DNA of 64,000 nt from assembly GCF_035083965.1 (NCBI RefSeq), contig NC_089735.1, positions 14,444,501 to 14,508,500 on the forward strand, given 5' to 3'. The DNA is from Branchiostoma lanceolatum (lineage: Eukaryota > Chordata > Leptocardii > Amphioxiformes > Branchiostomatidae). Both the position numbers and the translations under genes were made by a program. Under the pieces are notes generated by a model that had not been told where the DNA came from, ran no database searches, and saw nothing but the letters and a program-made list of their open reading frames with translations. Below, piece by piece: positions 2,339 to 62,477 of this stretch. The first letter of the stretch is position 1, and each line of letters begins with the position of its first letter.

Positions 2339-2369
2339 AGATCCGACCGTCCAAGTTTCTGAAAACCCC

Positions 2370-2385
2370 GGCCCTTTTCAGGGCC
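2370..2385 (+). terminator. Histone 3' stem-loop (H1, unit 1)
   Basis: Canonical GGCCCTTTTCAGGGCC, 31 bp after the H1 stop. It is followed by ACAAAAGAACT, a weaker match to the U7-complementary element than the one behind H4. Confidence 0.93.
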
Positions 2386-2457
2386 ACCCACATCTTAACA
2401 AAAGAACTATGTCAATCACATCAAAGTTATCACTTTTCCACACGCCATATGCTCTCC

Positions 2458-2522
2458 AAAAAAAAAAAAAAGAATGAATGAATGTAATAAGATAGAAACA
2501 TATCTATCACCCCCCCCCCCCA

Positions 2523-2572
<50 letters not shown>
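2458..2572. repeat. Homopolymer and CA microsatellite in H1-H3 spacer
   Basis: An A run, a run of about 11 C and a (CA)n tract of about 48 bp lie together. The unit 2 counterpart (7,817-7,893) has a longer C run but only about 14 bp of CA, so the tract varies in length between otherwise near-identical units. Confidence 0.9.
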
Positions 2573-2875
2573 CAGACTATCAAAAGAATGGGTGGATGGA
2601 CGCACAGGTAGACTGAATTTCGCCGAATATAAAGACGACGGAAGACGTCTAATGGCATGACGATTTTGTGTGTGTGTTGCGAGTCCACAACTTTATTGAG
2701 CAATGAAATTGACGAAAGCCTGGTTGCTACTGTATGTCTAGGCACGAGCGTTTGCCCGAGTGTATGTGTAGCCCATTGACATTCTATACCGCATGCATCT
2801 TTAATTCATGCGCTACCCTACCCCCAAAAGTGCCGAGCTTGCTGCAAAAGTCGGATTCTGGAGACACAAAAACTG

Positions 2876-2972
2876 ACCAATCGCAAGCTCGGATTTCAGC
2901 CAGGGAACCAATCAGACGGCAGGGCGCCCGCCAATTGTAATCTGCGGGCATATGATTAGCGGGTGTTATAAA
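2876..2972 (+). promoter_or_regulatory. H3 promoter, unit 1
   Basis: Two CCAAT boxes (2,877-2,881 and 2,908-2,912) and a perfect TATAAA (2,967-2,972) precede the H3 ATG by 170 to 77 bp. Unit 2 has the same layout, with TATAAA at 8,290-8,295. No other feature is seen between 2,573 and this promoter. Confidence 0.85.
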
Positions 2973-3024
2973 TTCACTCTCCACCGCTCGCCGACCACTT
3001 TTATTGACTTGCACTTGAGCGTAG

Positions 3025-3459
<435 letters not shown>

Positions 3460-3490
3460 GGAGGATCGCAACAAGATCAACGACAACCCC

Positions 3491-3506
3491 GGCCCTTTTC
3501 AGGGCC
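3491..3506 (+). terminator. Histone 3' stem-loop (H3, unit 1)
   Basis: GGCCCTTTTCAGGGCC followed by a purine-rich CAGAAAGATCT stretch as the likely downstream element. Confidence 0.93.
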
Positions 3507-4049
3507 ACCCACATATCCCAGAAAGATCTATATCGTTCACCTTTCTTTAAACAGACGTACGTTCTTTCGTCTGACATACAATTACACGCGACTCGCACAT
3601 CACCCCCCCCCTAATACCTGTAAACGCATATCAATTCAGCCGACAGTGTGATGACTTTATTAATGTAATGTTTTTTCGTTGTTGAGCCTGAATTACACAC
3701 AACTCGCACCCCCCCCCCCTTTACTACATGTACACGAAAATCGATTCAGTCGACTTTATTGACATTAAAGAGTGTTACAACGTGCACACACATATAACAT
3801 ACATATATGTCAGCTAGCATTAAACGACACACTTGTAAGACGCGGGCCATCTGAGAATACCATATTGTGGCCATGACGTTGATTGTCTATCAGCTATCTT
3901 GGACGGGCTATGCCATATGTAAGGTTACTTTTACTACTAAATTGTCTTAGTCTCATACTGTGTGTGTGTGTGGGGGGGGGGGGTATCCACTCGTGTATCT
4001 GCATTGATTCAGTGTGAAGAGAATACAGTTCTTTCGTGAGGATGTGGGT
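3507..4049. other. H3-H2A convergent spacer (unit 1)
   Basis: No gene is visible. It contains several C and G homopolymer runs (around 3,603, 3,710 and 3,970) and two local near-repeats of a segment ending in GACTTTATT. This is the spacer that carries a 298-bp insertion in unit 2. Confidence 0.8.
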
Positions 4050-4065
4050 GGCCCTGAAAAGGGCC
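4050..4065 (-). terminator. Histone 3' stem-loop (H2A, unit 1)
   Basis: Reverse complement of the canonical GGCCCTTTTCAGGGCC, 23 bp beyond the H2A stop on the minus strand. A GAAAGAACTGTATT stretch further on is the likely U7-pairing element. Confidence 0.93.
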
Positions 4066-4088
4066 GGGGTTTCGGTTTCGTCTTGAAA

Positions 4089-4737
<649 letters not shown>

Positions 4738-5100
4738 ATGCCGCCAAGTGGAAAAGCCGCCAAGATAGCTGGCAAGGCCAGGCCCGCGGGAGACAAGAAG
4801 CGTGGAAGGAGGAGAAAGAGAAGGGAGACCTTCGGCGTCTACATCTACAAGGTGCTAAAGCAGGTGCACCCCGACACCGGCGTCTCCAGCAAGGCCATGG
4901 GCATCATGAACTCCTTCGTCAACGACATCTTCGAGAGAATCGCTGCCGAAGCTTCTCGACTGGCTCACTACAACAAGCGCTCTACCATCAGCAGCCGCGA
5001 GATCCAAACCGCCGTGCGACTCCTTCTGCCAGGCGAGTTGGCCAAGCACGCCGTCAGCGAGGGCACCAAGGCCGTCACCAAGTACACCAGCTCCAAGTAA
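4738..5100 (+). CDS. H2B: Histone H2B (unit 1)
   Basis: Core histone dimerising with H2A. The 120-residue product has a basic N-tail ([12 protein letters not shown]) followed by the fold beginning [20 protein letters not shown] and the invariant end AVTKYTSSK with the ubiquitin-acceptor lysine. No intron; stem-loop downstream. Residue 10 is Ile where unit 2 has Lys (KAAKIAG versus KAAKKAG), probably neutral in the tail. Confidence 0.99.
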
Positions 5101-5131
5101 ATCCAAGTCCGCCTCCGCTCAACGTAACCCC

Positions 5132-5147
5132 GGCCTTTTTCAAGGCC
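5132..5147 (+). terminator. Histone 3' stem-loop (H2B, unit 1), variant stem
   Basis: GGCCTTTTTCAAGGCC: the stem keeps six pairs by a compensated change (C-G to T-A at the fifth pair) relative to the other four genes. The same variant occurs in unit 2. ACAAAAGAGCTAT downstream matches the U7 pairing element. Confidence 0.93.
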
Positions 5148-6295
<1,148 letters not shown>

Positions 6296-6332
6296 AGGAT
6301 CTGACTCTCCTCATCGAAAGCAAGCAAACCCC

Positions 6333-6348
6333 GGCCCTTTTCAGGGCC
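6333..6348 (+). terminator. Histone 3' stem-loop (H4, unit 2)
   Basis: Canonical 16-nt stem-loop, followed by AAAAAAGAGCTGT complementary to U7 snRNA. Confidence 0.93.
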
Positions 6349-7089
6349 ACCCAAATCTCCAAAAAAGAGCTGTATCTTCTCACACCACATGTACACACCT
6401 GACTCGAACAACGAGCATAAATTATACAAAAGTCTAAGCCAAGCCGGTCATGCAAACACACAACAATGAACTATGATGGTCCCATTTTCTTTGTAAATTG
6501 TAGTGATAGTCTTGTTGATTTCTGTAAAGATGTGTGCACGGTTGGATACTAAGAAATGCGTGTGAAGCGTCGTTTATATGTTTTATCTTCTTGGTACACT
6601 TTGTGTGTGTGAAGAATATAATTAGCGTGTGGAGAGATCTTGGTGCAATTTGGAGTGTGTGTTGCTTATGATCTATATCTTGTCGATCTCTGCTCGTTCA
6701 CGCGTAGTGAAGTTGCTTGGCTCAAATATGATATAGCTGCGTCAACTAAAAGCCTTGGTGTTCATCAAGTCAAATACGGTCACTCGTTTCTGCGTGCAAA
6801 CTCGATCAGCCGTCGGCGTGGAGTCCAGGGCGTTCTTACTGAAAAGTATGGCAAATATCTCAATATCTGATGGCTAGTGACCAGCCCCTTTCATCAAATT
6901 AGTGAGGTGGACATGTCCTCTTGTACGGAAACCGAGCCAGTATCGTTTTTGGTACCCAGGAATTGAGAAATTCAACCGTAAAGTTAGAAAAGAAACACAA
7001 ATTTCGCCGCGACGGACAATAAGACGCAGACACGCTACGGCGTTTCCGACCACGTCCGCACCGTCGCTACTTCACGCCAGCTTGACAAG
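6349..7089. other. H4-H1 spacer (unit 2)
   Basis: Homologous to 991-1,732. No gene. It contains the H1 box AAACACA at 6,993-6,999 upstream of H1. Confidence 0.8.
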
Positions 7090-7695
7090 ATGTCGGGTTC
7101 ATTTCCATCGCAGACAAAGCAAGCAATCATGTCCGCTCCAGCATCGTCCCCCAAGAAGGCCAAGAAGCCCAGGGCGCCCAAGGCCCCTGCGGCTCACCCG
7201 CCCACCACCGCCATGATTACGGCGGCCCTGGAAGCGCTCAAGGATCGTAAAGGTTCTTCCCTGTTGGCCATCAAGAAGTACATCGCCGGCAACTACAAGT
7301 TCGACGTAGAGAAGCAGGGACACTTCATCAAGCGCGCCCTGAAAGCATTGGTGGCCAAGGGCACCCTCATTCAGGTGAAAGGCACGGGGGCGTCGGGATC
7401 CTTCAAAATCAACGTGGCAGCCAAGAAGGCCGCCGAGAAGAAGCCGGTCAAGAAAGTCGTCAAGAAGCCGGTCAAGAAACCCGCGGCCAAGACGACCACC
7501 AAGCCGAAAAAGCCCGCGGCCAAGAAGGCTGCCACCCCCAAGAAGGCGGCAAAGAAGCCGGCCGCCAAGAAGGCCAAGAAATCTCCGGCCAAGAAACCAG
7601 CTGCCAAGAAACCGGCCAAAAAGACGCCGAAAAAGAAGCCGGCCGCAAAGAAGGCAGCGCCTGCCAAGAAGGCGACCAAGCCCAAGAAGAAGTGA
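7090..7695 (+). CDS. H1: Linker histone H1 (unit 2)
   Basis: 201 residues from the first ATG (188 from the second at 7,129). Same globular domain and Lys/Ala/Pro tail as unit 1, with two tail differences (PAAKTTTKP here, and [10 protein letters not shown] in place of [10 protein letters not shown]). Intronless and followed by a canonical stem-loop. Confidence 0.96.
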
Positions 7696-7726
7696 AGATC
7701 CGACCGTCCAAGTTTCTGAAAACCCC

Positions 7727-7742
7727 GGCCCTTTTCAGGGCC
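7727..7742 (+). terminator. Histone 3' stem-loop (H1, unit 2)
   Basis: Canonical GGCCCTTTTCAGGGCC, 31 bp after the stop. Confidence 0.93.
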
Positions 7743-8782
<1,040 letters not shown>

Positions 8783-8813
8783 GGAGAATCGCAACAAGAT
8801 CAACGACAACCCC

Positions 8814-8829
8814 GGCCCTTTTCAGGGCC
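8814..8829 (+). terminator. Histone 3' stem-loop (H3, unit 2)
   Basis: Canonical GGCCCTTTTCAGGGCC, 31 bp after the stop. Confidence 0.93.
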
Positions 8830-9272
8830 ACCCACATATCCCAGAAAGATCTATATCGTTCACCTTTCTTTAAACAGACGTACGTTCTTTCGTCTGACAT
8901 ACAATTACACGCGACTCGCACATCACCCCCCCCCCCAAAAAATACCTGTAAACGCATATCAATTCAGCCGACAGTGTGATGACTTTATTAATTTAACGTT
9001 CTTTCGTTGTTGAGCCTAAATTAAACACAACTCGCACCCCCCCCCCCTTTACTACATGTACACGCAAATCGATTCAGCCGACATTGTACTGACTTTATTG
9101 ACATTAAAGAGTGTTACAACGTGCACACACATATAAAATACACATATGTCAGCTAGCACTAAACGACACACTTGTAAGATGCAGGCCATCTGAGAATACC
9201 ATATTGCGTTGATTGTCTGTCATATATCTTGGTATGTCATATGTTAAGTTACTTTTGCTACTAAATTGTCTT
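8830..9272. other. H3-H2A spacer, left part (unit 2)
   Basis: Homologous to the unit 1 spacer, with C homopolymers near 8,926 and 9,038. No gene is visible. Confidence 0.8.
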
Positions 9273-9570
9273 TACCCTGGGAGTCCAGGCACCGTAATCG
9301 GATCCCCGCACGCGCGCCCAAGCTTTCACGGCCCACCCTCCCGCTGCCCCCCGAAGACTGACCCCGCCCCACTCTCCGCTCAGACCCAAACTCCGCTATC
9401 CGATTACTCCGCTATCCGATTACCGTAATCGGATAGCGGAGCTTGGGTTTGCAGCGGAGAGTGGGGCGGGGTCGGTCTTCGGGGGGCAGCGGGAGGGTGG
9501 GCCGTAAAAGCTTGGGCGCGCGTGCGGTGCTCCGTGGCCCGCCGATTACGGTGCCTGGACTCCCAGGGTA
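9273..9570. mobile_element. 298-bp foldback MITE inserted in unit 2 only
   Basis: The ends are perfect inverted repeats (TACCCTGGGAGTCCAGG inward from both sides), and nearly the whole element is an imperfect palindrome of two arms of about 148 bp meeting near 9,421. It is flanked by a 9-bp target duplication AATTGTCTT (9,264-9,272 and 9,571-9,579); unit 1 has one copy of this sequence at the empty site. No transposase is encoded. The 9-bp duplication and full-length arms would suit a Mutator-like or related non-autonomous element, but the superfamily is not certain because the boundary can slide by one base. Confidence 0.9.
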
Positions 9571-9690
9571 AATTGTCTTAGTCTCCACATATACTCTGTA
9601 TGTGTAGGGGGGGGGGGGGTGGTATATCCATTCGTGTATCTGCATTCATTCAGCGTGAAGAGAATACAGTTCTTTCGTGAGGATGTGGGT

Positions 9691-9706
9691 GGCCCTGAAA
9701 AGGGCC
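9691..9706 (-). terminator. Histone 3' stem-loop (H2A, unit 2)
   Basis: Canonical stem-loop on the minus strand downstream of H2A. Confidence 0.93.
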
Positions 9707-9729
9707 GGGGTTTCGGTTTCGTCTTGAAA

Positions 9730-10379
<650 letters not shown>

Positions 10380-10742
10380 ATGCCGCCAAGTGGAAAAGCC
10401 GCCAAGAAAGCTGGCAAGGCCAGGCCCGCAGGAGACAAGAAGCGTGGAAGGAGGAGAAAGAGAAGGGAGACCTTCGGCGTCTACATCTACAAGGTGCTCA
10501 AGCAGGTGCACCCCGACACCGGCGTCTCCAGCAAGGCCATGGGCATCATGAACTCCTTCGTCAACGACATCTTCGAGAGAATCGCTGCCGAAGCTTCTCG
10601 ACTGGCTCACTACAACAAGCGCTCCACCATCAGCAGCCGCGAGATCCAGACCGCCGTGCGACTCCTGCTGCCAGGCGAGCTAGCCAAACACGCCGTCAGC
10701 GAGGGCACCAAGGCCGTCACCAAGTACACCAGCTCCAAGTAA
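10380..10742 (+). CDS. H2B: Histone H2B (unit 2)
   Basis: 120 residues, differing from unit 1 only at residue 10 (Lys here). Intronless; variant stem-loop GGCCTTTTTCAAGGCC follows. Confidence 0.99.
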
Positions 10743-10770
10743 ATCGTCCGCCTCCGCTCAACGTAACCCC

Positions 10771-10786
10771 GGCCTTTTTCAAGGCC
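10771..10786 (+). terminator. Histone 3' stem-loop (H2B, unit 2)
   Basis: GGCCTTTTTCAAGGCC, the same compensated variant as unit 1 H2B. Confidence 0.93.
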
Positions 10787-13600
<2,814 letters not shown>

Positions 13601-21805: not shown

Positions 21806-22521
21806 CTAGACACGCACAGATGGACGAATGGATGGAGAACAGACGGAGCAGGACAGCGAAGCATAGGGAGGTTGAGAGAGACGGAAAAATACACTTTTTA
21901 ATACATAAAACATTAACGTTAGCAGCAGTAGGTTCTCTGTTACCTGAACAATCAGCCCTGACCATGTGTCAGTCAATATAACCCTAACAAATCTCTCTCT
22001 CTCTCTATCCATTTTAACGTCTTTTATTCCCCATCATATGATGTAAATAAAACACTGCCTTTAAAGTTTGTTGAATATTCCTCGCAGTGTACACAAATCA
22101 GGGCTAACTGTCAAGTTCCGAGTCACCAGTGTTAGTACAAGAGAAGAGTATTACGTGAACTGATCACTGCAACAAATGAACGTCTATAAAATGTACAGCC
22201 AAAGTTGCAAACTCACAAGACACAAGCAATATACAGAAATAAAATCCTGAAATACAACAACAGATTTTATTGCAGAACAGAAGAGATGGCCTCCAATGTG
22301 AAAATCCATTCTTAATGACATACCAGTACCTGTATCGTATCACAGGCTCCTTTTACTTCTACTTGGGAAAAGATATAAAAGGTTTGAAAATCAGTTTTTA
22401 ATCAAACAGTCAACAGTTAACATGCTGTAGTGTCAAGACAATTTATTTTTTCAAGAAGGAAGCAAGGAACAGCACACTTGAATGTCAAGAAAGTTGTTGT
22501 TTGTTCTTGTTGACTGTTGTT

Positions 22522-22550
22522 TTGTTTGTTTGTTTGTTTGTTTGTTTGAA
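22522..22550. repeat. TTTG tetranucleotide repeat next to a 5' splice site
   Basis: About seven TTTG units on the plus strand. On the gene strand they begin about 9 nt into the intron after exon 22,559-22,674. Confidence 0.9.
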
Positions 22551-22558
22551 ATACTTAC

Positions 22559-22674
22559 AGCACAGCAGAAGCACTCCGTATGCCAGGCGACGTTCAGGGC
22601 CTCTAGCCAGCGATCGCCAGGCTCGATGGGGAAGTCACACGCGGTACACTTGGTAGACATGGTCTTTGCAAAGC
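22559..22674 (-). CDS. PDZ-LIM gene: LIM2/LIM3 boundary exon
   Basis: Acceptor CTTAG|GC, donor GCT|GTAAGT; phase 1 in, 0 out. It encodes the end of LIM2 and the first zinc finger of LIM3: FAKTMSTKCTACDFPI, then EPGDRWLEALNVAWHTECFC. The ligands C-x2-C and H-x2-C are intact. GDRWLEAL is very close to the vertebrate Enigma LIM3 GDRFLEAL. The overlapping HTEC/FCC/AVC series completes with the Cys in either last exon. Confidence 0.93.
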
Positions 22675-23402: not shown

Positions 23403-23523
23403 AGATATCACAGATCTGTGCTCCCTCCCACAGATGGTAGCCATTGGGGTCCAGTTGGCAGTTACACTTGGCGCACAGGAAGCAGGTCTTACAGAACTGC
23501 ATGTCATTCGCAATGATGGATTC
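23403..23523 (-). CDS. PDZ-LIM gene: LIM2 core exon
   Basis: Acceptor CCAATAG|GAA, donor ATCT|GTGAGT; phase 0 in, 1 out. 40 full codons starting ESIIANDMQFCKTCFLCAKC. The usual His of the LIM2 first finger is replaced by Cys (FCKTC), still a possible zinc ligand. The second finger ends C-x2-C (CDIC, finished in the next exon). The donor survives with a MITE only 11 nt inside the intron. Confidence 0.92.
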
Positions 23524-26262
23524 CTATTGGACGGGAAAGGAGAGGGTAAGCCAATCACAGACGTTGTTGTCTACAACAGAAGGCCTAATAAGGGCATAAA
23601 TAATACCTTCCTCCCCCTACATGTATGTGTACATTTTGACAGAGAGATATAGAGTACCATATTGGTTGAAGTATATCTTATAGTATAGATAGTATAGAAT
23701 CTGATATGGTATGTATGTATATGAGGTATCACGGTACCAAAAACAATGTAACCTGAAGCCTTATTAGCCTCATAGAGGTTTTTCTGTAGACAACGATTCT
23801 ACCCAAACTGGAAAATCTATAAAAGTTCCATCTTCAAATGGGGGCAAAAATTTCCACATCTTTTCTTCACCAGATTCTGTACTACATTTCAAAAGCTTCA
23901 AAAAGTCCCTCATAGAATTTTTCTGTAGACGACGATTCTACCCAAATTGGAAAATCTTCACAAGCTCCATCTTGAAATGGGGGCAAAAATTTCCACATTT
24001 TTTTCTTCACAAGATTTTGTATTACATTTCAAAAGCTTCAAAAAGTCCCTCATAGAGGTTTTTCAGAAGACAACGATTCTACCCAAATTGGAAAAAAAAT
24101 ACTATTAAGCTCGCTCCTGAAGCTTCGCCAAAATCTTAACACGTTCCATCATCAAACGGGGGCAAAAATTTCCACATCTTTTCTTCACAAGATTTTGTAC
24201 TACATTTCAAAAGCTTCAAAAGATTGTGAAGAAGTACTCTTGCCCCCCTGAAAGGAGAAATCTGTCAATAAATAAATAACAAAGATTACCATTTATCATA
24301 ACCCATCAAATTACTCAAGTTTCAACATTTCTTAACAATGGATTAAACATGCTGTTAAAATTCTAATCTATGACATGCAGGGTGACTGTTTCTATAGAAT
24401 CATGCAGATTGGAAGCAGTACTACTATGCGTGCATGCAGGCAACTCACAGACTGTACTGTAACGTGCACGTTGCTACCATGGAGCTTTCGGGATGTCTGT
24501 GGATGAAAGCAATGGTGTCATCATGTACACAACATTACGCATGCCAATGGAGTGGGTGCAAAACAAATAAATAAATAAAAACAAACAAAAATCTGTTTTA
24601 GGCACAGCAAGCAATTGTAATTCTTAATCTGTTGATGCATACTATCCTCATCATACCATCACACACACACATTATGTATGATATATCTAAGGCACAACAA
24701 GTACATGTATATGCAAAGTCTGACACACCAAATACACCCTGATAGAATAAAACAGTTAAAGATAGATTCACACTAAGACCACTGCATACTTGTACCATGT
24801 ATTTACTTAAAGGCAACCAAAGCAATATTAGGGCCCAAAAAATCATAATGTAAATAAAAAATTGTGAAATCTTCATGGTAGTGACATTTACTAACACTAC
24901 TTAGCACATTTGCATAATAACTTCATACTTTGAGCAATTCAAAACCGTGCAAAAACATGCCGTACGATGATCCCCTTAGTTTGCGGGCCTACAAAAACCC
25001 CGGCAGAGATTTTCAGTGAGTTCTCATATCACAACGATGTCGCTTTTTTTGCATCATGGACGTTGTATACATTGTGATAGTGTTGTTTGAACTAATCATG
25101 ACTGTATAGAAATGACTAAATAAATTGACTTTCAAAATATGATTTTTTTGCCCTAATATTGCTTGAGTTTCCTTCAATAAGCACAACAAGCAACCATATT
25201 ATGGTAGTGCAATATCTGACACACCAAATACACCAAGTGAGAGATGACAGAACAACATCCGCACAACATACACAAAACATGTAACTTATACGAATTCATA
25301 CACCAACATTTAAACAGACACATTCAAGCGCATCAAGCCTATACTCTGAAATTCACATCTGCAACAGCACAGAGCACAACATGGCCTGAATTCCGGCTGT
25401 ATCAGCTTTAAGCAGGTATCTCACTGAAGCTGCGGCACGTTGGCAACCTCGCTGCGGCCGAGCAATTTTCGCTCAACAAATTTCATTGATAAAAAACAAA
25501 TCTTCTACGCTTTGTGTGTTTTGTTGTCTTTTTAGTCGGTCTTGTACGTTTTGCATGATATTCCCATTATAAGGTGTAATGTCAAGGGTAACACAAATCC
25601 AATTTAGGATGCAAACGTGCAGCTGTCTAGTGAGATACCCGCTTTAGCTGCTCCAAAACTTATCCAAGCTGCCAGTTGGAGAACAGCTAGAGCTATACAG
25701 CTACGGTCGGATTTCAGGTCACCACACCATGCATCGAGATCATTTTCACCAACTACGCAGCAAATAGCACAATTATAGGTTATGTCACACACATTCCGAT
25801 GCTCTAGCTGTGATTGGCTACGCATGGTTTTGCACAAAAACTCAATATCAATATCAGGTTTGGAAACGAAACGATAACTCTAGCAGTTGTCTCTCCATGA
25901 TGCCTATCATCACGATCAAGGAAACAATAAGCAATGTTAGTTCCAACACAAGCACCTGGCAGGTATTGTTGAACAAATCATACATTCCAGGGATTATGTT
26001 TCCTTAAAAAACCGAACTTATCCTCATTTAGTATATGCTGAATATATACATAAAGCTCTCAGAATGTGAACACAACTATTTTTTATTACAAAACTTCATC
26101 TCTCCAAATTCAGCAGATAGGTACTTGCTAAATCAGTCATCAATTTTATGTCATGAAGCAATCCCATTTTCGGGACGGACAGGGTGACATTTTTTCCCGC
26201 TCCGACAACTGAAGCAAATTTCCGTTCTGGGACGGAGGGACGGGTCCTGGAGACAACTCTGC
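23524..26262. other. Intron with tandem and dispersed repeats
   Basis: Contains a tandem of a 140-bp unit (23,768-24,235, about 3.4 copies; each begins CCTCATAGA). Further on are a MITE copy with AACCAAAGCAATATTAGGG ends (about 24,806-25,180) and a 233-bp MITE (25,411-25,643). A partial copy of the CAGGGCTGTCTCC family lies near 26,170-26,262. No exon recognised. Confidence 0.75.
25411..25643. mobile_element. 233-bp MITE with TTA target duplication
   Basis: The inverted ends AGCAGGTATCTCACT and AGCGGGTATCTCACT are flanked by TTA on both sides (25,408-25,410 and 25,644-25,646). A 3-bp TWA duplication suits PIF/Harbinger. Related copies lie at about 38,598-38,815 and 44,950-45,170. Confidence 0.7.
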
Positions 26263-26269
26263 ACGGGAC

Positions 26270-27138
26270 ACATATAACCCCACCCACGGGACACATATAA
26301 CCCCATCCACTGGACACATATAACCCCACCCATTGGACACATATAACCCCACCCACTGGACACATATAACCCCACCCACTGGACACATATAACCCCACCC
26401 ATTGGACACATATAACCCCACCCATTGGACACATATAACCCCACCCATTGGACACATATAACCCCACCCATTGGACACATATAACCCCACCCATTGGACA
26501 CATATAACCCCACCCATTGGACACATATAACCCCACCCATTGGACACATATAACCCCACCCATTGGACACATATAACCCCACCCATTGGACACATATAAC
26601 CCCACCCATTGGACACATATAACCCCACCCATTGGACACATATAACCCCACCCATTGGACACATATAACCCCACCCATTGGACACATATAACCCCACCCA
26701 TTGGACACATATAACCCCACCCATAGGACACATATAACCCCACCCATTGGACACATATAACCCCACCCATTGGACACATATAACCCCACCCATTGGACAC
26801 ATATAACCCCACCCATTGGACACATATAACCCCACCCATTGGACACATATAACCCCACCCATTGGACACATATAACCCCACCCATTGGACACATATAACC
26901 CCACCCATTGGACACATATAACCCCACCCATTGGACACATATAACCCCACCCAAGGGACACATATAACCCCACCCATTGGACACATATAACCCCACCCAA
27001 GGGACACATATAACCCCACCCATTGGACACATATAACCCCACCCAAGGGACACATATAACCCCACCCATTGGACACATATAACCCCACCCAAGGGACACA
27101 TATAACCCCACCCATTGGACACATATAACCCCACCCAC
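26270..27138. repeat. 23-bp minisatellite, about 38 copies, starting at the splice donor
   Basis: A 23-bp unit containing ACATATAACCCCACCC is repeated about 38 times with few substitutions (variants at one or two positions near CATTGG, CACTGG, CAAGG and CACGGG). It ends exactly at the 5' splice site of exon 27,139-27,319: on the gene strand the intron starts GTGGGTGGGGTTATATG, which is itself a repeat unit. All three minus frames are open for over 1 kb because the unit has no stop in any phase. Confidence 0.97.
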
Positions 27139-27319
27139 CTCACAAATGGGCTCGCCACATTTGCCACACAGAGGGGCGAAGAACTCCTTGTAGTGCGTGG
27201 AACAGTACAGCTCGTTTTCCTCCTCCACAAACCCCCTGTCGATCAGGTTGCAGTTACAGTGGAAGCACACGAACTGATCCGGCTGCCAGCATCGGCCCAT
27301 GGCAACCACAAACGGACCC
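27139..27319 (-). CDS. PDZ-LIM gene: Enigma-type LIM1 exon
   Basis: Acceptor TTCACCAG|GGG, donor GAG|GTGGGT; phase 2 in, 0 out. It encodes GPFVVAMGRCWQPDQFVCFH, then CNCNLIDRGFVEEENELYC and YKEFFAPLCGKCGEPICE. The GPF-VAMGR-W and GFVEE--ELYC blocks are characteristic of Enigma/ZASP LIM1. The His ligand of the first finger is Gln here (CWQPDQ), whereas vertebrate proteins have WHPEE; zinc binding by that finger is doubtful. The exon also starts LIM2 (CGKC). It can follow the exon at 27,976-28,164 or, in phase, the exon at 32,499-32,631. Confidence 0.94.
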
Positions 27320-32498: not shown

Positions 32499-32631
32499 GA
32501 GATGTCGCCGTCGCAGCCCTGGCAGGTCGGCACGTTGACGGCCTTCTCCATCTCCTTGGCGGTGACGGCCTGGAGCTCGCGGGGGCCGGCGCGTTCCTTT
32601 TGGGACAGCGCAGCCTGAGCCTCCGCCAAGT
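32499..32631 (-). CDS. PDZ-LIM gene: linker plus first LIM ligands (ALP route)
   Basis: Acceptor CCATCAG|ACT, donor ATCTC|GTAAGT; phase 1 in, 2 out. It encodes LAEAQAALSQKERAGPRELQ, AVTAKEMEKAV and NVPTCQGCDGDI. CQGC is the first zinc pair of the LIM completed by exon 29,692-29,917. Phase also allows joining to 27,139-27,319, which would replace the defective CEKT of the Enigma route by an intact C-x2-C. Confidence 0.92.
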
Positions 32632-36150: not shown

Positions 36151-38013
36151 AGGCAAATTAAGTGTCTTCATCCAATTCCATGCTTTAAATTTACTTAAAG
36201 ATATCTAAAAGAAAACTTGCCTTTTAAGCTTATTGGTTCAAGCTACCCTCGTATCAAAATTTAACATCGTTTGGTTTCATAAATAAACAAAGGTATGGTA
36301 CTCTCTTAAGAAGTCGCAGAGGAAACAAAAAACCTCAGAGAAAAAAGAACATTTCCCTCTAACACTTAAGTAGAGGGAAATATAATCACAGCATGCTGTA
36401 GCAATGAATACACCGATTTCTTAATCATAAAAACATATTTGTTACTGTATATTGTGCTAGAATTACTGTAAAAAGCCTCAACATATTAAGAAATACACAC
36501 AGCACACTCTCTTGAAAAAAAAAAGCATTAAGTACATCATACTTTAGATAACAAATAAATTCTAGATATACGCTCACCTAATCCAAGCACTGCCTTTTAG
36601 CTCAGTGATTCTGCACTTTATTGTATGATACACATTAATGTAAAACAATAGCCTAAGGGACAGCACGCACAAACTAACAAAAAAAGGAGTTACAACAGTT
36701 ACTGTAGCGCCACTTTGGACCTGCTACCAGAAAAAAAGGAAGTATAGTCACCTAGCAGGCTGATCTGCAGGTCTATGGTAACAGCAGCATGGAAGGAAAG
36801 CATTGTGATGAAGAGCATGTAGAACAGAATACTAGTAACTGTCACAGAAAGAATAGGCTTGCCCCTGAGGCATCGCCAAAAACTTGAACAATGCTTTTTA
36901 GTCTTTCAGTGGCAGAATAGTATTCAAAGCATGTTAACAGTTCATGGCAGTAGCAGAAAGTGATAGCATTTTAAGACTACCAAGCGACCATTCAACATCT
37001 CTGCTTAGACATACATGTAGGTTATTTTCTAAACTGACCGACTGACTTACATCTGGGACATGCAAGCAAGGGTGTTACATTTGTGATAAAGGCAAGCCTA
37101 AGATAATAAAGCTTGAGGAGCAATTGTGGACATGCAATGTTGTTGTCTTTACCTCTGTAACGACTGAAGTTTTACATACATGTAAACTAATGCAAGGTTA
37201 ATAGAGTAATATGTATTACATTTAGTATTTTCATGCGTGATACTCTTTGAAATACAATGTGAATGAAGATGCAACACCAAACATGAACACTACAGTTACT
37301 GTAACAGAAAACAATTAGAACATTGTAGCACTTGGAAAACTATTTCTTTCACATCTTTAGTTTAGTTTTTTTTTCAACAGTTTATGTCATGCTGTTACAT
37401 GGCAAACATTAGAGCATAGTATGAAGGAAAATATTTCTTAAATTTTATTACTTTACACTTGAGTTATATTACAGTCATTTTATATTTCCTTGTGTAAATA
37501 TAGATGCCATTAATGGGGATAAAAGGCAACCAACCAAGGCAGTTATATAACCTAACTGAACTAACAAAGCTTTTCACTACACTGTAATTAACTGTATACA
37601 CACACAAGGGGTAGCGGTCAAGCACTAAACGATCATGGAATTCTCCACGGTTGGAGCAAGGCAGTGAATGAACAACTATGCACAACATCAGCTTGTGAAT
37701 GGAGACACTTGTGAATGGATTGGGTGCAAACCATGCAGAGGATCTGGTCTGACATCAGTTCTTTCAATCCAAGCCATGCGAGTGACCGACAGTCTGCCGA
37801 GGGGGGTATGGTGTTGGTGGGGGGTGGTAGCGTTTCTCCAACCTGTGGTCACATGACTCAGACCAGCCAATGGTGGCTGTTAGTTCAGCTGGAAGCGCGA
37901 GTTCCACAAACACACACATTGAGAACTCCCGACATGCTGGATTAGCGACCACGGTGCCGACAGTCCGACGATGCCCGTTCACAGAGATTGTTTGTCCGCT
38001 GCATGCGGCTTAC
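36151..38013. other. Intron, nothing recognised
   Basis: AT-rich to about 37,600, then a moderately GC-rich stretch to the next exon. No exon with homology is visible. Confidence 0.55.
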
Positions 38014-38223
38014 CGCTGTGGCGCGGTCACCTCGGGCTTGCCTCCGACTAATCCCGCTAGCTGTCCCTCCAAGGTGTCCTGGACGGCGCCCGCGGAGTAC
38101 ATGCCCAGGGGCGTGTCGTACTGCGCGTGCACAATCTTCCTGCCGCCGGCCTCGATTTCGATGGGCGCGGCGGGCTTGCCCAGGCCAGCCTCGCCGGCAC
38201 GCTTAATGGCACCTACATCCACA
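38014..38223 (-). CDS. PDZ-LIM gene: second ZASP-like (ZM) motif exon
   Basis: Acceptor CACTTCAG|TGT, donor CAGCG|GTAAGC; phase 2 in and out, 210 nt. It encodes VDVGAIKRAGEAGLGKPAAP, IEIEAGGRKIVHAQYDTPLG and MYSAGAVQDTLEGQLAGLV. The core VHAQYDTPLGMYS...DTL is the ZM motif (vertebrate V-[NH]-x-Q-[YF]-N-[TS]-P-x-x-[LM]-Y-S), which helps bind alpha-actinin. A phase-2/2 cassette that can be included or skipped. Confidence 0.94.
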
Positions 38224-40772
38224 CTGAAGTGCACAATATCAGATAAACACACAGAACAACAGAAAGATTCATATTCCTTATCATAAACAACACAGCCCAA
38301 CATTACATCTACACTGGATTCAGTCTACATAAACACTGGCCTCTGAAGATTTGGAGAGACAACTAAGATTTGGAGAGACAACTAAGATTTGGAGAGACAA
38401 CTAGGGATTTGTTAACACAATTTGAAATATAAGGCTTTATCAAATTTTCTTAATTCCTGGTGTTGCTCCATATCTACAGGACCTGAGTGTCAAGTTATAC
38501 ATTGTGTAGCATCAGCCTTAAGCACTGGCATTATATATATTACATGTATATGAACAGCATTTGACATTATCAAAATAAGATGTTGACAACTTGAAACGGG
38601 TATCTCACTGAAGCCGCGACACCTTGACGACCTTGCTACGATTTGACAAAGCGAACTTCATTGATAAAAAACAAATTTTGTGTGTTTTGTTGTCATTTTA
38701 GTCATACTTGTACATTTTGCATGATATTCCCATTATATTCGGGTAACATCGTACTAACGCGAATCCAATTTAGGATACAGCAAGTCCACCAACGTGCCGC
38801 AGTTCAGTGACATACCAGTCCTGCTTTACATACATGTATCAAGGACAAAAATCTACACATAAATGAAAAAAAAAGAGTAATTGCAACGGAGAGTAGCAGG
38901 CAATTAGAATGAAGTAGAGTGGAAGCATAGTCACCTAGGACCACCTGCAGCAGGATAGCTGGTGCAAAAGTATGGAAAGGAACATAAGGCATGAATGGAT
39001 GAAGTCAAGCAGAGCGCAAGCACTGCCCAGGAGATATATGGTATGGTATGGTATATACAGCTATTGGTTATACATAATTTTGTGGAGCTTTACATTATAT
39101 GATGTACCTCGTTTTTACACTTTCTTTGGCAAATATCACGTCAATCAGCATTTTCAGACAAACAAAATTTCTAAATGAAAACCTGTACACACTGTTTGGC
39201 AAATATCACATCAATCAGCATTTTCAGACAAACAAAATTTCTAAATGAAAACCTGTACACACTGTTTGGCAAATATCACATCAATCAGCATTTTCAGACA
39301 AACAAAATTTCTAAATGAAAACCTGTACACACTGTTTGGCAAATATCACATCAATCAGCATTTTCAGACAAACAAAATTTCTAAATGAAAACCTGTACAC
39401 ACTGTTTGGCAAATATCACATCAATCAGCATTTTCAGACAAACAAAATTTCTAAATGAAAACCTGTACACACTGTTTGGCAAATATCACATCAATCAGCA
39501 TTTACAGACAAACAAAATTCCTCAATTGAATAAAAAAAAGTTTGATTTTCGACTTGTACGTGTCTCTTTCCTTAAGGATTCAAACTGCTCTTTTACCATC
39601 ATGCTATATTCCAAAGTTTCTGGTGCGAATTCGTAAAGAGCTAAGGGAGGCACTCATTTGAAATTGTAATTGATAAAGGTTACCAGATAGGGTCGAGGTA
39701 ACAATATACCTTTTGCTGAATGATCGTACATGTGTATGATACAACGAACGTATGGCAACTTGAACAACATTTCTGGAAACTACTAAGTCTACTGTACAAA
39801 TTGAAAGACTACATATATAGTACAGTATGAAACTATACGAGTCTTTGGGTCACAACACGAGTGGACAGACAAGACAGATAAAAAGGGTGATAAAAAGTAT
39901 AGGCTGTATAAAAAGGCTTTTAAGCAATAAAAAAAGCTATGATTAAGAAAAGCTGAAGCAAGCTGGTACCCATCAAGCAGCTGGGAAGCGGGTTCAGGCT
40001 CACTGGAAAAGCAGCGGGTGGAAAAAGGGAAAACATCGGAGAGACAGGGAAGGTAGAAAAGGTAGAGATATAGCAGATAGCAAAGGATTCAGCCACTTAG
40101 GTTGTTATTATAGCAGCTGCCTTAGCGCTTCAGTTTGCAAGCAACCTTATTTTATAGAACAAGTTACACAAAACAAAGGGTACATTTTGAATACATGTAC
40201 AAAAATGTATCAATAATTATATTTACAATTGCACAGTCCTAAAATTATCATTAATGAGAGCAACTCTATTTCAGAAGCTGTCAGTAGGAATAAGACATTC
40301 CTTTAGCCCTGTGTGTTTTGTTAATCAAAATATGTTTCTGATAATAATTACCATCCTTTTTACATTGATAAACCATTCATGTCAACATGTATACAGATAT
40401 CTCTAGCTGTAAGCTTAGAAAACAGAGTTGCCCTAATTACCAAAACCACAACGATATTCAACATCATATTGAGATGAACAATTACTTAATAACTTGTACC
40501 ATACTTGCTTGTACCTTCAACACATGCTGATAGATACATGAAACTTTACATTATTGTAGATCTGTTCCCTTTTCATACAGGATTCAAAATAGGCTAGCAA
40601 GACAGCAATTTTAAAGTCCCCACATTTGTAGCTGACATACAGCATCTTAGTAAATTACTATGTCTTGAAGTTCGTTCTTGCTGCCTTTCCCTTATGTCCT
40701 TTTCAAAACAGACATTTACTTCATGCCAGGTGCAGGCATCTCTCATGCCACGTTAAGGGAGAATGGTTGTAC
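38224..40772. other. Intron with MITE copy and 70-bp minisatellite
   Basis: A MITE copy lies at about 38,598-38,815 (GGGTATCTCACTG end). A 70-bp tandem is at 39,120-39,520. No exon recognised. Confidence 0.7.
39120..39520. repeat. 70-bp minisatellite, about 5.7 copies
   Basis: TTTGGCAAATATCAC recurs at exact 70-bp intervals (39,195, 39,265, 39,335, 39,405, 39,475) with almost no substitutions between inner copies; the outer copies are slightly diverged. Confidence 0.95.
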
Positions 40773-40900: not shown

Positions 40901-42121
40901 CTGTTCTCGGGAGTAACAACCAGGTGTGAAACTAATGTTGGGAGTTACCATACTCTCCCTGTCTCCTGTGGGGAGGGGGGCAGTCTGCATACCTTATACA
41001 ACCTGTCTCCTTCATACGCAGATTTTTTTTGGGAAGGAAACAATCTTTTCAGGTTTCTTTGCTTTACCCTCCTGGCTTGTTGCTGCAAAGTTTGTCTTGG
41101 TGCTTTCTGCAGTGCGAAAGGAAGTACAGCAACCTGCAGTTTTTTTCCAGTATCCAACGTTAACGTTGACAAGTACATGTACCTGACTGGGGTACTGTTC
41201 ATGGGTTATGTAATAATGGACATATGATGGCAACTTTTAAACCTAAAGTGATGAAAGGAAATTATGAATCAAGATCCCACATATTAGTTTTACTGATATG
41301 ACTGTACTGTAAACAAATTTTTCAGGTATTTGACCATTCTGTTTAAAAGATTGTCCTGAAGAGCCTTTAGTAGCTACTGAAATGTATCCCAGTCAAAAGC
41401 TTGATGAAGGAACTCGCTGCTTTATACAGAAACATGTGGGCTGGGCATAGTGGTGTATGGTAGTACTCAGTCATGTAATCCATGTTCTTGGCTTGATCTC
41501 CAGGGCATCAATGCCATTTGTGGCCAGCAACTGCTCTAGATCTGAAGGATGTACCGGGTATATTTAGAAAAGGGGTTGGAGTGTCCAGAAAAGGGAAGGG
41601 TCCGCTGTGTCCTCTTGGAGCTGCCGCTTTGGGATTGGAGCAGAATCAATCAATGGTCTCATCTCCATTTACAGCTCCTTGTGATATGAAGGACTCGACT
41701 GGTCACCCGATGGACGTCCTCCGAGTGCTTTTCATTGCATTTGTCCTCCATAAGAGAGTCAGGACGGTACCAAAAACTGTTTCACGAGACAGGCTGGCTG
41801 GCGAGTTCTAATGGGCCATGTGCTTTTCCGTCACAGTAGTTGGCCTGACCCTATTGGGTTGATGAGCGCGATCGTCTTCCAAAGTTTAGTGACATCCTGA
41901 TTATCATAGAGTTGTAGAATGAAGGTGTGTTTGCTGAATGCTGCTATTATTTGATTGCAAGCTTCATCTTTCAAAATGGCGCTAGTTCTTGTACCTCTAT
42001 TATTCTACCAGTAGACAGAATATATTTGGTACCATAACAACTTACCTGATGAAGTTTACCTGTTCAAAGTGGCACAAAATGTACCTTCAAGTAGTGCTCA
42101 AGCCTTCATTTTCTCACTAAC
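40901..42121. other. Intron, nothing recognised
   Basis: A 97-codon plus-strand open frame (41,518-41,811) has no recognisable domain and is likely chance or an old repeat. Confidence 0.5.
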
Positions 42122-42786
42122 CTGTTTTGTGCTTCCTGTAGAAGCTGTTGACCTTTCAGAGTCTCTGAGACGTTTTCCACGGCGTACATGTTGATGGGGG
42201 TGTTGTACTGGCTGTGGACCATCCCGGGACTGGTGGGCGACCGGGGAGCGCCCACGGAAGGCGGCTGACCCGTGGCGGAGAGCGACGACAGCCGCGTGGG
42301 AGCCATCGGGGAGATTCGCGTGACGGGGGAAGAGACTGAGGAGACTTTTAAGTGCGACGGTCCAGTCTGTACGGACGTTCCAGACTGTACGGGGCTTATA
42401 CGTGTCGGGGAGAATGGCTGCCCTGCCCTTAGCGGGGGTGACGGAACACTCGGTGCCTGGACTGGTGGGGGTTTGTAGACTGTCGGACGTTGGAGGCGTA
42501 AAGGCGGGGCCTGCGTAGGAGCACTTGCCTGCTGAACAGGGGCAAAAGCACTGTTGTCCCCGCTGCCAATGCTACTGACTCCATTGGCGGAACCAGTAGG
42601 GACAGGGGCAACACTACTTGCACCACCCCCCGGGATGAATGGCTTTGGGGTGGAGTTGTACAGCTTATTGACGGAGCTGGTGGCTAAGGTAGGGGTGGGG
42701 TTATAAAGCCCATTGGTGGGGGTGGGGTTATATAATCCAGCGCTAGGGGTGGTATCGCTGGCAGGCACACTGGCTGGCTGGAACCT
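42122..42786 (-). CDS. PDZ-LIM gene: large Ser/Pro-rich exon with first ZM motif
   Basis: Acceptor TTTTACAG|AGG, donor AACAG|GTTAGT; phase 0 in, 2 out, 665 nt. It starts with a Pro/Thr/Asn repeat (GLYNPTPTNGLYNPTPT), continues as a long Ser/Pro/Val linker, and ends with GMVHSQYNTPINMYAVENVS ETLKGQQLLQEAQ. VHSQYNTPINMY is a ZM motif. LDB3/ZASP of vertebrates also has two alternative exons, each with a ZM motif. Confidence 0.94.
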
Positions 42787-44789
42787 CTGTAAAACATGCG
42801 TCAGTGGAACATGCTCAGTTCATGCTGCAGTTCAGGCAACTATCACTAGGGTGACAATTCTCACATGCAAGATGTGAACAAGCTGACTAAACTCAGAGCT
42901 ACTCATTGTGTGAATAGGATGACTGATACTGTGATAGCTTATCCAATGTTTACAAATACAAGCAAAATTAAGCTACTTCAACAAGCAAAGATACATAGAA
43001 CTCATTCATACAATGTAAATGCTGTAAAAGTAGTGTCATATTTAAGTGCAAACATTTACATGACACATCAATATATCAGGTGAATTTGTGTTTGTGACTG
43101 TTAAAGTGACTGTCAAAACTAACCGTCCTGTCATTATAAGTTTGTAAGGAACAAAGTAGTGCTAAGTGAAAGGCAAGTGTCATGCAGGAAATATACATGC
43201 AACACTGGTAGAGAAAAATGTACCAGGAGAATGAAAGTATTCAAGACAGTTTTTAGGAAAGTAGATACGAGTACAGTAGAGAATGTGAGGAGTGGATTAT
43301 GTATGGAGACAATGATTTGATATGACGGTAGTTTGTGCCCAAGAAAATATAAAATTCCAAAACTCACTGTCATCATCTTTGAGAAGTGTCTGACGTATTC
43401 TTTTTAGATCTATTTTTTTACATCTTAAAAAGAAAGCAACCATTGTGTAAACTTAGTCTATTAGTTTCGTCAAAACAATTAGATTTATACTTTTTTTGTT
43501 GAGATTTTCCGCATGGTTCTGTCATGTTACTAGTAGCACCTCCCATTTCTTCACTGCAAATTTTGCAGCTGTTGTTGGCAGTTTTGACGTGCCTTGCTTG
43601 AAGATTGAGACACCAGCCATTGTTCCTCTGCTATTGCTAGAGGAGGCAGCTTGAAAAATTGTGTCTCCAAGTCCAAGGTTTGTAAGACAGCAGGACAGAC
43701 CAGGCTTGAGCAGGAGAGTAAAGCAAAGAGTATACTGTAACCGTAAAGAAGTAACCCTCCGGTGGGACAAGGGTTAAGGTAGGCAGACTGCTGAGACTGA
43801 GAACCCACAGTACAGGGAAAGGGAGGTCAGCAAAGAGTTAACAGGTAGTTATAAACATAGCACAAATAGTCAAGTTATCATACTGCATGAAAAGTTAAAT
43901 ATCATCTATTATCAAGATTTGTCAGTGACAGTGTAGACTACAGTAGAGACAAAGTAGTATGAAGTAAGAGTATAAATGGTTAACAATACCAGGTACTAAT
44001 ATTCAACTATTTGAGAACAGCATAGTCAACAGCTAAAATATGTATCATTGCACTGTTTATAACTATATATAATATAAGTGATTAACATTTTTTGGACATG
44101 TACATATGATGGTGATGAAACAACAAGAAACATACCAAAGTTCATGAAATGATTTTAAAATTGGTATATCTAGATAGATTGTACCATAACAGATATACAT
44201 CACTTTGCTATTCAAGTTTGTAAGAATTATATTAAATTTCTCTTATCTCTGACCAAACTCAAACCAGCTTTCAAGGAAAGGCATCTAGTCATTCTAGTGC
44301 CAATGTTGGAAAGGAATTTTGCCATATATAGTCATGACATTGTAAGATAGGTTACCAACAACAAGATCAGTCACTCTTTTGGAAGCTGTTAAAGTAACAT
44401 CCTGTGTTCTTTGTCCTTGAGAATTCCCGAAAACAAGTTTGGAATTGTCTTGTTTGAGCTACGCATGTGGGACACAAGTTTCTTGCTGTTATCAGTAGTA
44501 AGATTTAAGAGGGGTTGCTAGCCCTTCTAGCAAATTGGCCAAATGTGTTTTTGAATTCCCAAAAATGGAACAAGAGTTCAGAGACCTCATACCTCCCTGA
44601 AATATTTAGAGCTTAAAAAAACTTATTCAAATGTCTTCCAAATTTACATAATCCATGCATGGTGATGTTCATATTAGACTAACCTACACATGTCACAAGT
44701 ATGAAATTCCAATCATTTACCACTTAGGAATCATGGGATTTTTGCATCAATTATGCAAATGAGGATCTAATTAGTATCATGACACTTAC
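42787..44789. other. Intron with a dispersed ATGCAAAT repeat
   Basis: The repeat (44,550-44,780: GAACAAGAGTTC, CCTCATACCTCC, AATTATGCAAATGAGG) runs up to about 10 nt from the 5' splice site of exon 44,790-44,865. No exon otherwise recognised; a minus-strand open frame near 43.5-43.8 kb has no known domain. Confidence 0.6.
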
Positions 44790-49689: not shown

Positions 49690-50890
49690 TACCTACACCT
49701 CAAATATGACGTCCTTAGCATCGGCTGTAAGGGTATTATGAAGTTTCTGCATAAATTATGCAAAGGAGGTCGGCATTAGCATAATTTATATACAGGTGTG
49801 TTCACCTCTCCTAAATCTGAAATATGACAATCGTAGCTTTACGGTGAGGGATATGCATAAATTATGCAAACGAGGCCCTCATTAGCATAATTTAGGGCCA
49901 GGTTTTATGACCCTCCCTAATGGTACCAACATCTCAAATATGACATCCGTAGCTTTCACGGTAAGGGAAATACAAGTTTATGACTAAATTATGCAAATGA
50001 GGTCCACATTAGCATAATTTATGGCCAGGTGTATTTGCCTTTCCTAAAGGTACTTACAACTCAAATATGACATCCATAGCTTTTACGGTAAGGAAAATTC
50101 AAGTTCATGCATAAATTATGCAAATGAGGTCCTCATTAGCATATTTTATGGCCAGGTTTCTTGGCCTTTCCTAATGGTACCTATATCTCAGATATGACAT
50201 CCGTAGCTTTTACGGTAAGGAAAATACAAGTTTATGCATTAATTATGCAAATGAGATCCACATTAGCATAATTTATGGCCAGGTGTGTTCACCTTTCCTA
50301 AAGGTACCTACATCTCAAATATGACATCTGCAGCTTTTACGGTAAGGGAAATACAAGTTTATGCATAAATTATGCAAATTAGGTCCTTATTAGCATAATT
50401 TATGTCCAGGTGCATTCACCTTTCCTAATGGTACCTACATCTTAAAGATGACATCCGCAGCTTTTACGGTAAGAGAAATACAAGTTTTTCCATAAATTAT
50501 GCAAATGAGGTCCTCATTAGCATAATTCATGGCCAGGTGTGTTCACCTTTCCTGAAGGTACCTACATGTCAAATATGACATCTGCAGCTTTTACGGTAAG
50601 GGAAATACACGTTTCTGCATAAATTATGCAAATGAGCATAATTTATATATATATTTTGAAATACACGTTTCTGCATAAATTATGCAAATTAGCATAATTT
50701 ATGTCCAGGTGCATTCACCTTTCGTAAAGATACCTACATGTCAAAGATGACATCTGCAGCTTTTACGGTAAGGGAAATACAAGTTTATGCATAGATTATG
50801 CAAATAAGGTACTCATTAGCATAATTTATTGTCAGGTGTAATCACCTTTCCTATAGGTACCTACATCTCAAATATAACATCTGTACATTG
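49690..50890. repeat. 127-bp minisatellite with octamer motif, about 9 copies
   Basis: AATTATGC recurs at 49,860, 49,987, 50,114, 50,241, 50,368, 50,495 and 50,622, exactly 127 bp apart, with shorter steps at the edges (106, 56 and 116 bp). Each unit has ATAAATTATGC and its inverse GCATAATTTAT flanking ATGCAAAT/ATTAG, plus GTACCTACATCTCAAATATG and TTTTACGGTAAGG. Confidence 0.95.
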
Positions 50891-60849: not shown

Positions 60850-62477
60850 TCGGGCATGCTGTTTAATCTTATCCAGCATTTGAGCATTTGAGACTGAATA
60901 TCTATGTATGATGGATATATATATATATATACTCAATTTGCCTCTCACAGCATTGTTTACAGAACTTGGCTGGGGACGCGAAGCAGTATCTTACAGAAAT
61001 TTAGGATACCATATTCTAGGTCGGAACTGATCTCGTACGAAATTGAAGGTTGGACCACTGTTATGTATTGCATTGCTAAATCACTATATCGATATATTTT
61101 ATCTAGCTTGTCGTTGTATTTACTAAGTCGGAGAAGAACAGGTCGAGTAGATAATGGGTCGGATTTTTTCCCCACACGGGCTGCCTTACTAATATCCACA
61201 TCTGATCCTAATATCGGAGATATCAAGTCAGACACAGATTTTCATTTGGATGTTCAGTTACTCCATGTAGTATGAGGTCTCGTGACTGAACATTTGTTCC
61301 CAGTATTTCACTACAATATAGCAGGATTGGTTTAATTAGGCTATCAAATAGATCAAGGGCCAGAGGTATGGATGGGTTATGATTAGACATGAGGATGGAC
61401 TTAAGTTTAAAAGAAGCCCGGAGGGCTTTTATTCTGAGTTGTTTTGTTGCTCGATGAAAAGAACCAGAGGGTGTTATATCTAGCCCTAAGTATGTATAGA
61501 AGTTGGTTATGTTCAAAGTTTGGCCCTGTGATTGAAAATTGTGTTTTGGGCTATTGCATGTTCGCGCGTTTTTAGAAAAGATCATGACTTTAGTTTTATC
61601 TCTATTGATTGAAAGCTTCCACTTATCCATTCTTTTGATACACTCTATTAGCCCCTGTTCTGGTCTTGAAAGTAGAACAAGATCGTCTGCCCAGAGAAGG
61701 CTATTTATCGGAATATCTCCAAGCATGACAGGGTCGCATAATGGTGATGAAAACTCTGATGGGAGGTCATTTACAAATAGGTTGAGTAGAATAGGACTTA
61801 TCGTACACCCTTGCCGCACGCCGCAAGTTGACTGAAAGTAGTTTGAAAGACCGTTAGGTATTTTGACACATCATTCTACATTTGAGTACATGGATTGTAT
61901 GATTCGGAAGAAATTTCCACCTATTTCTGATGATAACAGCTTGTTGTATAAACCATTCTCCAAACGGGATGAAATGCTTTTTTAAGTTAAAATCGACAAA
62001 GCATGCGTATAACTTCCTACGAGATTCAGACAGTTGTTTTTATCGACAATAGTTTTCATCACAAAGATATTATCACAGACAAGAATGTTTTGATTCCACT
62101 GATTGGGAAAGTTACTGGATTGGAGGACGAAATTCAATAGTTTTTTAAAATGGTAGGACGCGTCTGTTATCACATTTTAGAATTTCGTTTATAATAGAAT
62201 CTGTGCCAGAAGCCTTGCTGCCTTTTAAATACCTAGTCCAGCCATGATTTCCTCCTCTAAAATGTCAAAATCTAGCGGATTTTCAGTTTTACATTCAATG
62301 ATTTTGATGATATTTTCTGTGTATTCCTTGTTTTCTTTATCAAGTATGGTGTTGTGATTTAGCGGTTGAAGAAGGTCTGGTCTCTCTTGATCAATATGTT
62401 GGTGGAATTCTGTATCTGATTGATTACTTTCAACGGGGTCGTTCAGATTTTCGAAGTGAGTTCCACTTTTCAGGACT

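Follow-up and report, generated by a model that had tools for sequence, protein, structure and literature searches.

What does a 23-bp minisatellite that begins exactly at a splice donor mean for the gene that carries it, and how might it have come to lie there? The array in question occurs in a 64,000-nucleotide stretch of the Branchiostoma lanceolatum genome (contig NC_089735.1, positions 14,444,501 to 14,508,500; hereafter the window, to whose first base all positions refer). In our assessment it is probably a nearly neutral, tolerated splice-junction minisatellite of the amphioxus type, which perhaps began with a 23-bp duplication, was homogenised and is spliced out from its first unit. 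Minisatellites at splice junctions are a kind already published, and the array looks ordinary, probably a tolerated expansion.

Sequence comparisons point to a gene of the ALP/Enigma family of muscle proteins (Zasp/PDLIM-type, with a PDZ-ZM-LIM architecture) as the host. A tblastn search with pieces of human LDB3 and PDLIM3 located a split PDZ domain (55642-55553 and 52417-52268) together with LIM pieces on the minus strand, and Pfam matched PDZ, LIM and, in a pair of exons (42106-42819, 38013-38324), DUF4749, all in one gene on one strand. DUF4749 is taken here to be the ZM region. Joining the half-LIM, LIM2, LIM3, LIM4 and last exons gave a protein with three LIM matches (Pfam, E 1.6e-30). 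When PDB sequences were searched with LIM2 alone and with LIM2-LIM4 (the latter query carrying one extra R after the half-LIM exon), paxillin was the best match and PDLIM5 the second; the ALP/Enigma name therefore depends on the PDZ-ZM-LIM architecture and on the human sequences. Single ALP/Enigma genes encoding one PDZ and four LIM domains occur in arthropods and a nematode, and a ZASP homolog is reported in amphioxus (PMC1781342, excerpt). The gene looks to be of a type not found in vertebrates, which would fit a cephalochordate host.

An initial annotation had placed the 5' splice site of a LIM-gene exon at the start of the array, and this assignment is upheld by the gene model, in which the flanking exons splice in frame and yield the three LIM matches. 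The donor, GAG/GTGGGT on the minus strand (slash, exon-intron boundary), lies at 27139/27138, and the exon that it ends terminates ...CCC ATT TGT GAG. The LIM2-LIM3 junction is in phase 0 (E/E), and the spacing of the zinc ligands across it is, by eye, that of LDB3, which supports the use of GAG/GTGGGT as donor. The half-LIM exon is in phase with the LIM2 exon and also with a LIM1 exon (29917-29692, minus strand; ALP-type, with its own stop), and alternative splicing may allow the one gene to make products of both the ALP and the Enigma type. AATAAA at 29012 and ATTAAA at 29248, which follow the LIM1 stop, lend weak support to an ALP-type end. Two similar tandem last exons (21805-21713 and 21113-21027, minus strand), each with its own stop, encode two alternative endings for the last LIM domain. 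The exon for the first half of that domain has its donor at 22558, and about 10 nt beyond it a TTTG x 7 microsatellite (22521-22548) begins. The features of the array and its surroundings are collected in the table.

Table. Features of the array and of the host gene around it (window coordinates).
Feature	Position	Strand	Remarks
Half-LIM exon (CQGCDGDIS)	32499..32631	minus	in phase with the LIM1 exon and with the LIM2 exon
LIM2 (Enigma-type) exon	27139..27319	minus	ends GAG/GTGGGT, phase 0
Host intron, LIM2 to LIM3	23524..27138	minus	3,615 bp, phase 0; acceptor CCAATAG/GAATCC; array forms its first 24%
Array of 23-bp units, head to tail	26265..27138	minus	n=38 in donor phase; all intronic; consensus ATGGGTGGGGTTATATGTGTCCA
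Unit 1	27116..27138	minus	contains the 5' splice site GTGGGT; sole G at position 1 among units 1-33
Units 2-9	26932..27115	minus	paired into four 46-bp dimers whose seams alternate; higher-order repeat adjoining the donor (unit comparison)
Distal units 34-38	26265..26379	minus	GT start in four (34, 35, 37, 38) (unit comparison)
GTG at the far edge	26262..26264	minus	period continues 3 bases beyond unit 38 (periodicity); may have served as a microhomology arm when the unit was first duplicated
LIM3 exon	23403..23523	minus	downstream partner of the donor (translation and splice joining)
Exon for first half of last LIM domain	22559..22674	minus	gene model

TRF delimits the array at 26266-27137, with a period of 23, 37.9 copies and 97% matches, and the first unit after the exon, read on the minus strand, is GTGGGTGGGGTTATATGTGTCCA. 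Units of about 10-100 bp in tandem make a minisatellite in the generic sense, and 23 bp x 38 is one. The tract had been described as a 23-bp minisatellite starting at the splice donor, with about 38 copies following the donor unit. Its nature and its start are as described, but the far end lies at 26265 (26262 by periodicity) and not at 26270, and the total of 38 includes the donor unit, leaving 37 that follow. On the far side the 23-base period extends to 26262; on the exon side its limit is 27137, and each of positions 27138-27141 disagrees with its counterpart one period away.

The units are close to uniform, and where they differ the differences are ordered. Twenty-four of the 38 are identical, and the 17 differences from the consensus over all units comprise nine at position 1, seven at position 23 and one at position 5, so that the unit seams hold 16 of the 17. 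G at position 1 is confined to units 1, 34, 35, 37 and 38, while units 2-33 have A or T instead (0/32 with G). Exactly two units, 34 and 35, contain CCAGTGGGTGGGG; the corresponding letters are CCAGTGGATGGGG in unit 37 and CCCGTGGGTGGGG in unit 38. Across the donor-proximal dimers the seam dinucleotide switches AA/CT. The homogenised core (24/38 identical) and the four 46-bp dimers show that turnover involved several units at a time. This order also bears on the idea that assembly has falsified the copy number or produced part of the array. Near-perfect repeats are, as a matter of general knowledge, easily mis-assembled, and the exact copy number of 38, taken from one assembled sequence, is uncertain; but the variants are ordered, the dimers lying next to the donor and the GT units at the distal end, which opposes simple computational duplication, and we regard an assembly error as very improbable. 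An exact search with the 20-base core of the unit gave no match in viral contigs, none of three repeat sequences of the window was found as text in the papers searched, and the locus is not named in the titles or abstract starts of the literature matches listed.

The distribution of variants suggests how such an array could have arisen. A 23-bp stretch beginning at the donor would have been duplicated, perhaps by way of a pair of GTG triplets, of which one belongs to the donor and the other lay 23 bp further into the intron (now 26264-26262); a microhomology of 3 bases has, by arithmetic, a chance expectation of 1 in 64. Slippage or unequal exchange may then have enlarged the array to 38 units, and turnover would have spread units starting with AT or TT through its middle. 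Unit 1 may have kept its GT through selection by splicing, or as an edge unit escaping homogenisation. GT opens unit 1 as well as four of the last five units, which suggests that it is the older state, and the distal GT units favour edge escape, at least as part of the answer. All extra copies are intronic, and splicing from the first, best-scoring donor would remove the whole array and leave the protein unchanged, which is why we think the array is tolerated. While the array, its position, the unit variants and the gene model are shown by the sequence, we infer the duplication route, the reason for the GT of unit 1 and the lack of an effect on splicing. Of the last 12 exon bases five match unit 1, which is not clearly above chance, and an exon contribution to the unit was set aside, although the exon may have had a share in the first duplication. 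Selection against decoy donors was considered as the cause of the internal loss of GT; this candidate is weakened by the better-scoring TGG/GTGGGG, which persists in 37 of the 38 units.

Amphioxus offers a close precedent in the "mirages", tandem duplications at splice junctions in globin, Adh3, troponin C and PGBD5 genes (PMC3087553, PMC3902484, excerpts), of which PGBD5 was added and troponin C cited as a case in the second of these papers (PMC3902484, excerpt). Their units measure 10-72 bp in Adh3, 150-160 bp in the globins (BflGb6, BflGb9) and 60 and 108 bp in PGBD5, and regular splicing is said to stay intact (PMC3087553, PMC3902484, excerpts). The globin mirage is homogenised inside with its edge units excluded, and germline and somatic instability are reported for Adh3 (PMC3087553, excerpt, the latter through that paper). 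Like the mirages, the array lies at an exon-intron boundary, starting at intron +1, and some of its repeats carry splice signals: a GT start in 5/38, unit 1 included, and TGG/GTGGGG in 37/38. Unlike them, it adjoins the donor with exon sequence not detectably copied, and it consists of 38 nearly identical units, 33 of which have no GT at the start. Given the position of a mirage but no exon-spanning unit, we withhold strict membership and regard the array, judging by its sequence, as mirage-like.

To gauge how unusual the placement is, we compared 34 TRF spans (most overlapping ones joined manually; simple repeats of two to four nucleotides excluded) with 14 inferred junctions, those of the ZM exons excluded. 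The smallest distance from an array edge to a junction is 2 nt, and a distance of 2 nt or less arose in 7.2% of 20,000 uniform placements. The position of the array on its own is therefore just mildly unusual, and the amphioxus precedent, in our judgement, carries more weight as support than the placement statistic. Two further arrays in the gene span, 70 bp x 5.7 at 39125-39526 (98% matches) and 127 bp x 6.2 at 49852-50636, adjoin no identified exon.

Donors were scored with a human frequency matrix, and all scores given here are on that scale. The real donor GAG/GTGGGT scores 4.92 and is clearly the best of its surroundings. The donors of the repeats all fall short of it by some 4 bits or more; TGG/GTGGGG (0.86, in 37/38 units) comes closest, followed by CCA/GTGGGT (0.22, two units), CCC/GTGGGT (-1.37, one unit) and CCA/GTGGAT (-3.37, one unit). 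Some copies had been thought to resemble extra donors; CCAGTGGGTGGGG does occur in two units, but the resemblance is limited, CCA/GTGGGT reaching 0.22 against 4.92 for the real donor. The gene's four other inferred donors (the half-LIM donor left out) score 0.95, 1.83, 4.71 and 5.16, and in the remaining intron 12 of 198 GT sites score 0.8 or higher. Since two inferred donors score 0.95 and 1.83, a repeat donor at 0.86 would be usable in principle.

The repeats might accordingly provide decoy donors or, if the intron were retained, extend a truncated LIM protein by a tail of repeats. Over 873 bases none of the three frames contains a stop; in the LIM register the frame runs for 330 residues until a stop, and a retained intron would bring the product, from the first codon of the upstream half-LIM exon onward, to 434 residues. 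The array had been proposed to be open in all three frames and to continue the protein for more than 300 residues upon retention, and as open frames both statements are accurate. The three frames are open together because the unit is stop-free and its length is not a multiple of 3, each copy shifting the frame, and they count as one fact, not three. Stop-free tandems were formed by 30.5% of 20,000 random 23-mers of the window and by 12.2% of 20,000 shuffles of the array unit, so an open frame is expected in about 12-30% of comparable units; the opposite strand of the array is not stop-free. The 330-residue tail had no Pfam match at E 0.01, and its translation would come at the cost of LIM3 and LIM4. 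A precedent for the use of repeat donors is at hand in a human interferon-induced transcript, in which, going by the title of Turri 1995, a minisatellite reportedly provides multiple splice donors. The array shares with that minisatellite donor-like units in a transcribed repeat, but differs in that its repeat donors score weakly where the human repeats act as several donors. Mirage repeats with splice signals could likewise serve as cryptic sites (PMC3087553, excerpt). With TGG/GTGGGG close to two inferred real donors on one side and the 4-bit gap to the real donor on the other, we consider decoy splicing or retention a slim prospect, and splicing from unit 1 the preferred reading.

The array could also act on splicing through its G-runs. 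Each copy was said to carry GGG runs on the RNA, and counting bears this out, with 75 GGG+ runs in the array directly 3' of the donor. If bound by hnRNP F/H-type proteins, they would form an intronic splicing enhancer that aids definition of the LIM2 donor in a manner dependent on copy number. In human INS intron 1, which has G-runs and a proposed quadruplex, depletion of hnRNP F/H leads to more intron retention and overexpression to the opposite (PMC4081105, excerpt). The array resembles this intron in having intronic G-runs, but 15 bases separate the G-run pairs of a unit, unlike the human case, and the array has no canonical quadruplex pattern; the minisatellite upstream of human INS is an element separate from the G-rich intron 1. 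By the human matrix the LIM2 donor, at 4.92 beside 0.95, 1.83, 4.71 and 5.16 elsewhere in the gene, is not weak. The identity of the units, moreover, would fit recent turnover better than long conservation. A working enhancer is thus unlikely, though less so than decoy splicing or an assembly error, and tolerance of the array remains the reading that we propose from the sequence.

The potential of the array to form G-quadruplexes, likewise put forward at the outset, depends on the loop length allowed. The RNA contains no four G3+ runs with loops of 1-7: the pattern G3+N1-7 gave no match in the array, and neither did G2+N1-7 or a pattern that allows loops of as many as 12 bases. Once the limit is raised to 15, 18 non-overlapping patterns appear, so that the proposal stands for long-loop patterns and not for canonical sites. 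G4Hunter over the array has a mean of 0.97 and reaches 1.2 in 11% of 25-nt windows. A special RNA structure of the array was set aside, since the 281-nt fold of its proximal end (z = -1.62) was equalled or bettered by 16 of 200 shuffles.

One candidate pairing partner lies elsewhere in the gene: 14 nt of the unit are reverse-complementary to the proline-rich exon (GLYNPTPT repeats) at 42720-42733, and 13 nt at 42693-42705. When the window, with the array removed, was shuffled 200 times by dinucleotides, three shuffles gave complementarity of 14 nt or longer on either strand, and we treat the match as weak because it was one look among several. It would enter into the least probable of the readings considered, to which we give hardly any credence, in which the array is a length-tunable isoform switch: the half-LIM exon would join either LIM1, with its own stop and of ALP type, or LIM2, and the G-runs that follow the LIM2 donor would set the Enigma-type output, perhaps also by pairing with the proline-rich exon, which lies 15 kb upstream.

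As a tolerated minisatellite, the array would add a further clean case of such a repeat beside a splice donor, and one whose history can be read, GT having been lost in the middle and kept at both edges. If alleles vary in length, they would provide a natural test of whether G-run arrays alter splicing or are merely tolerated, and of how donor arrays begin.

Elsewhere in the window, Rfam detected nine histone 3' stem-loops (2365-10811) and nothing beyond them, and ARAGORN found no tRNA. The stem-loops fall into two similar blocks about 5.3-5.6 kb apart and mark a putative histone gene cluster. At 61223-61870, on the minus strand, a 215-aa open frame resembles, by eye, a piece of a non-LTR reverse transcriptase.
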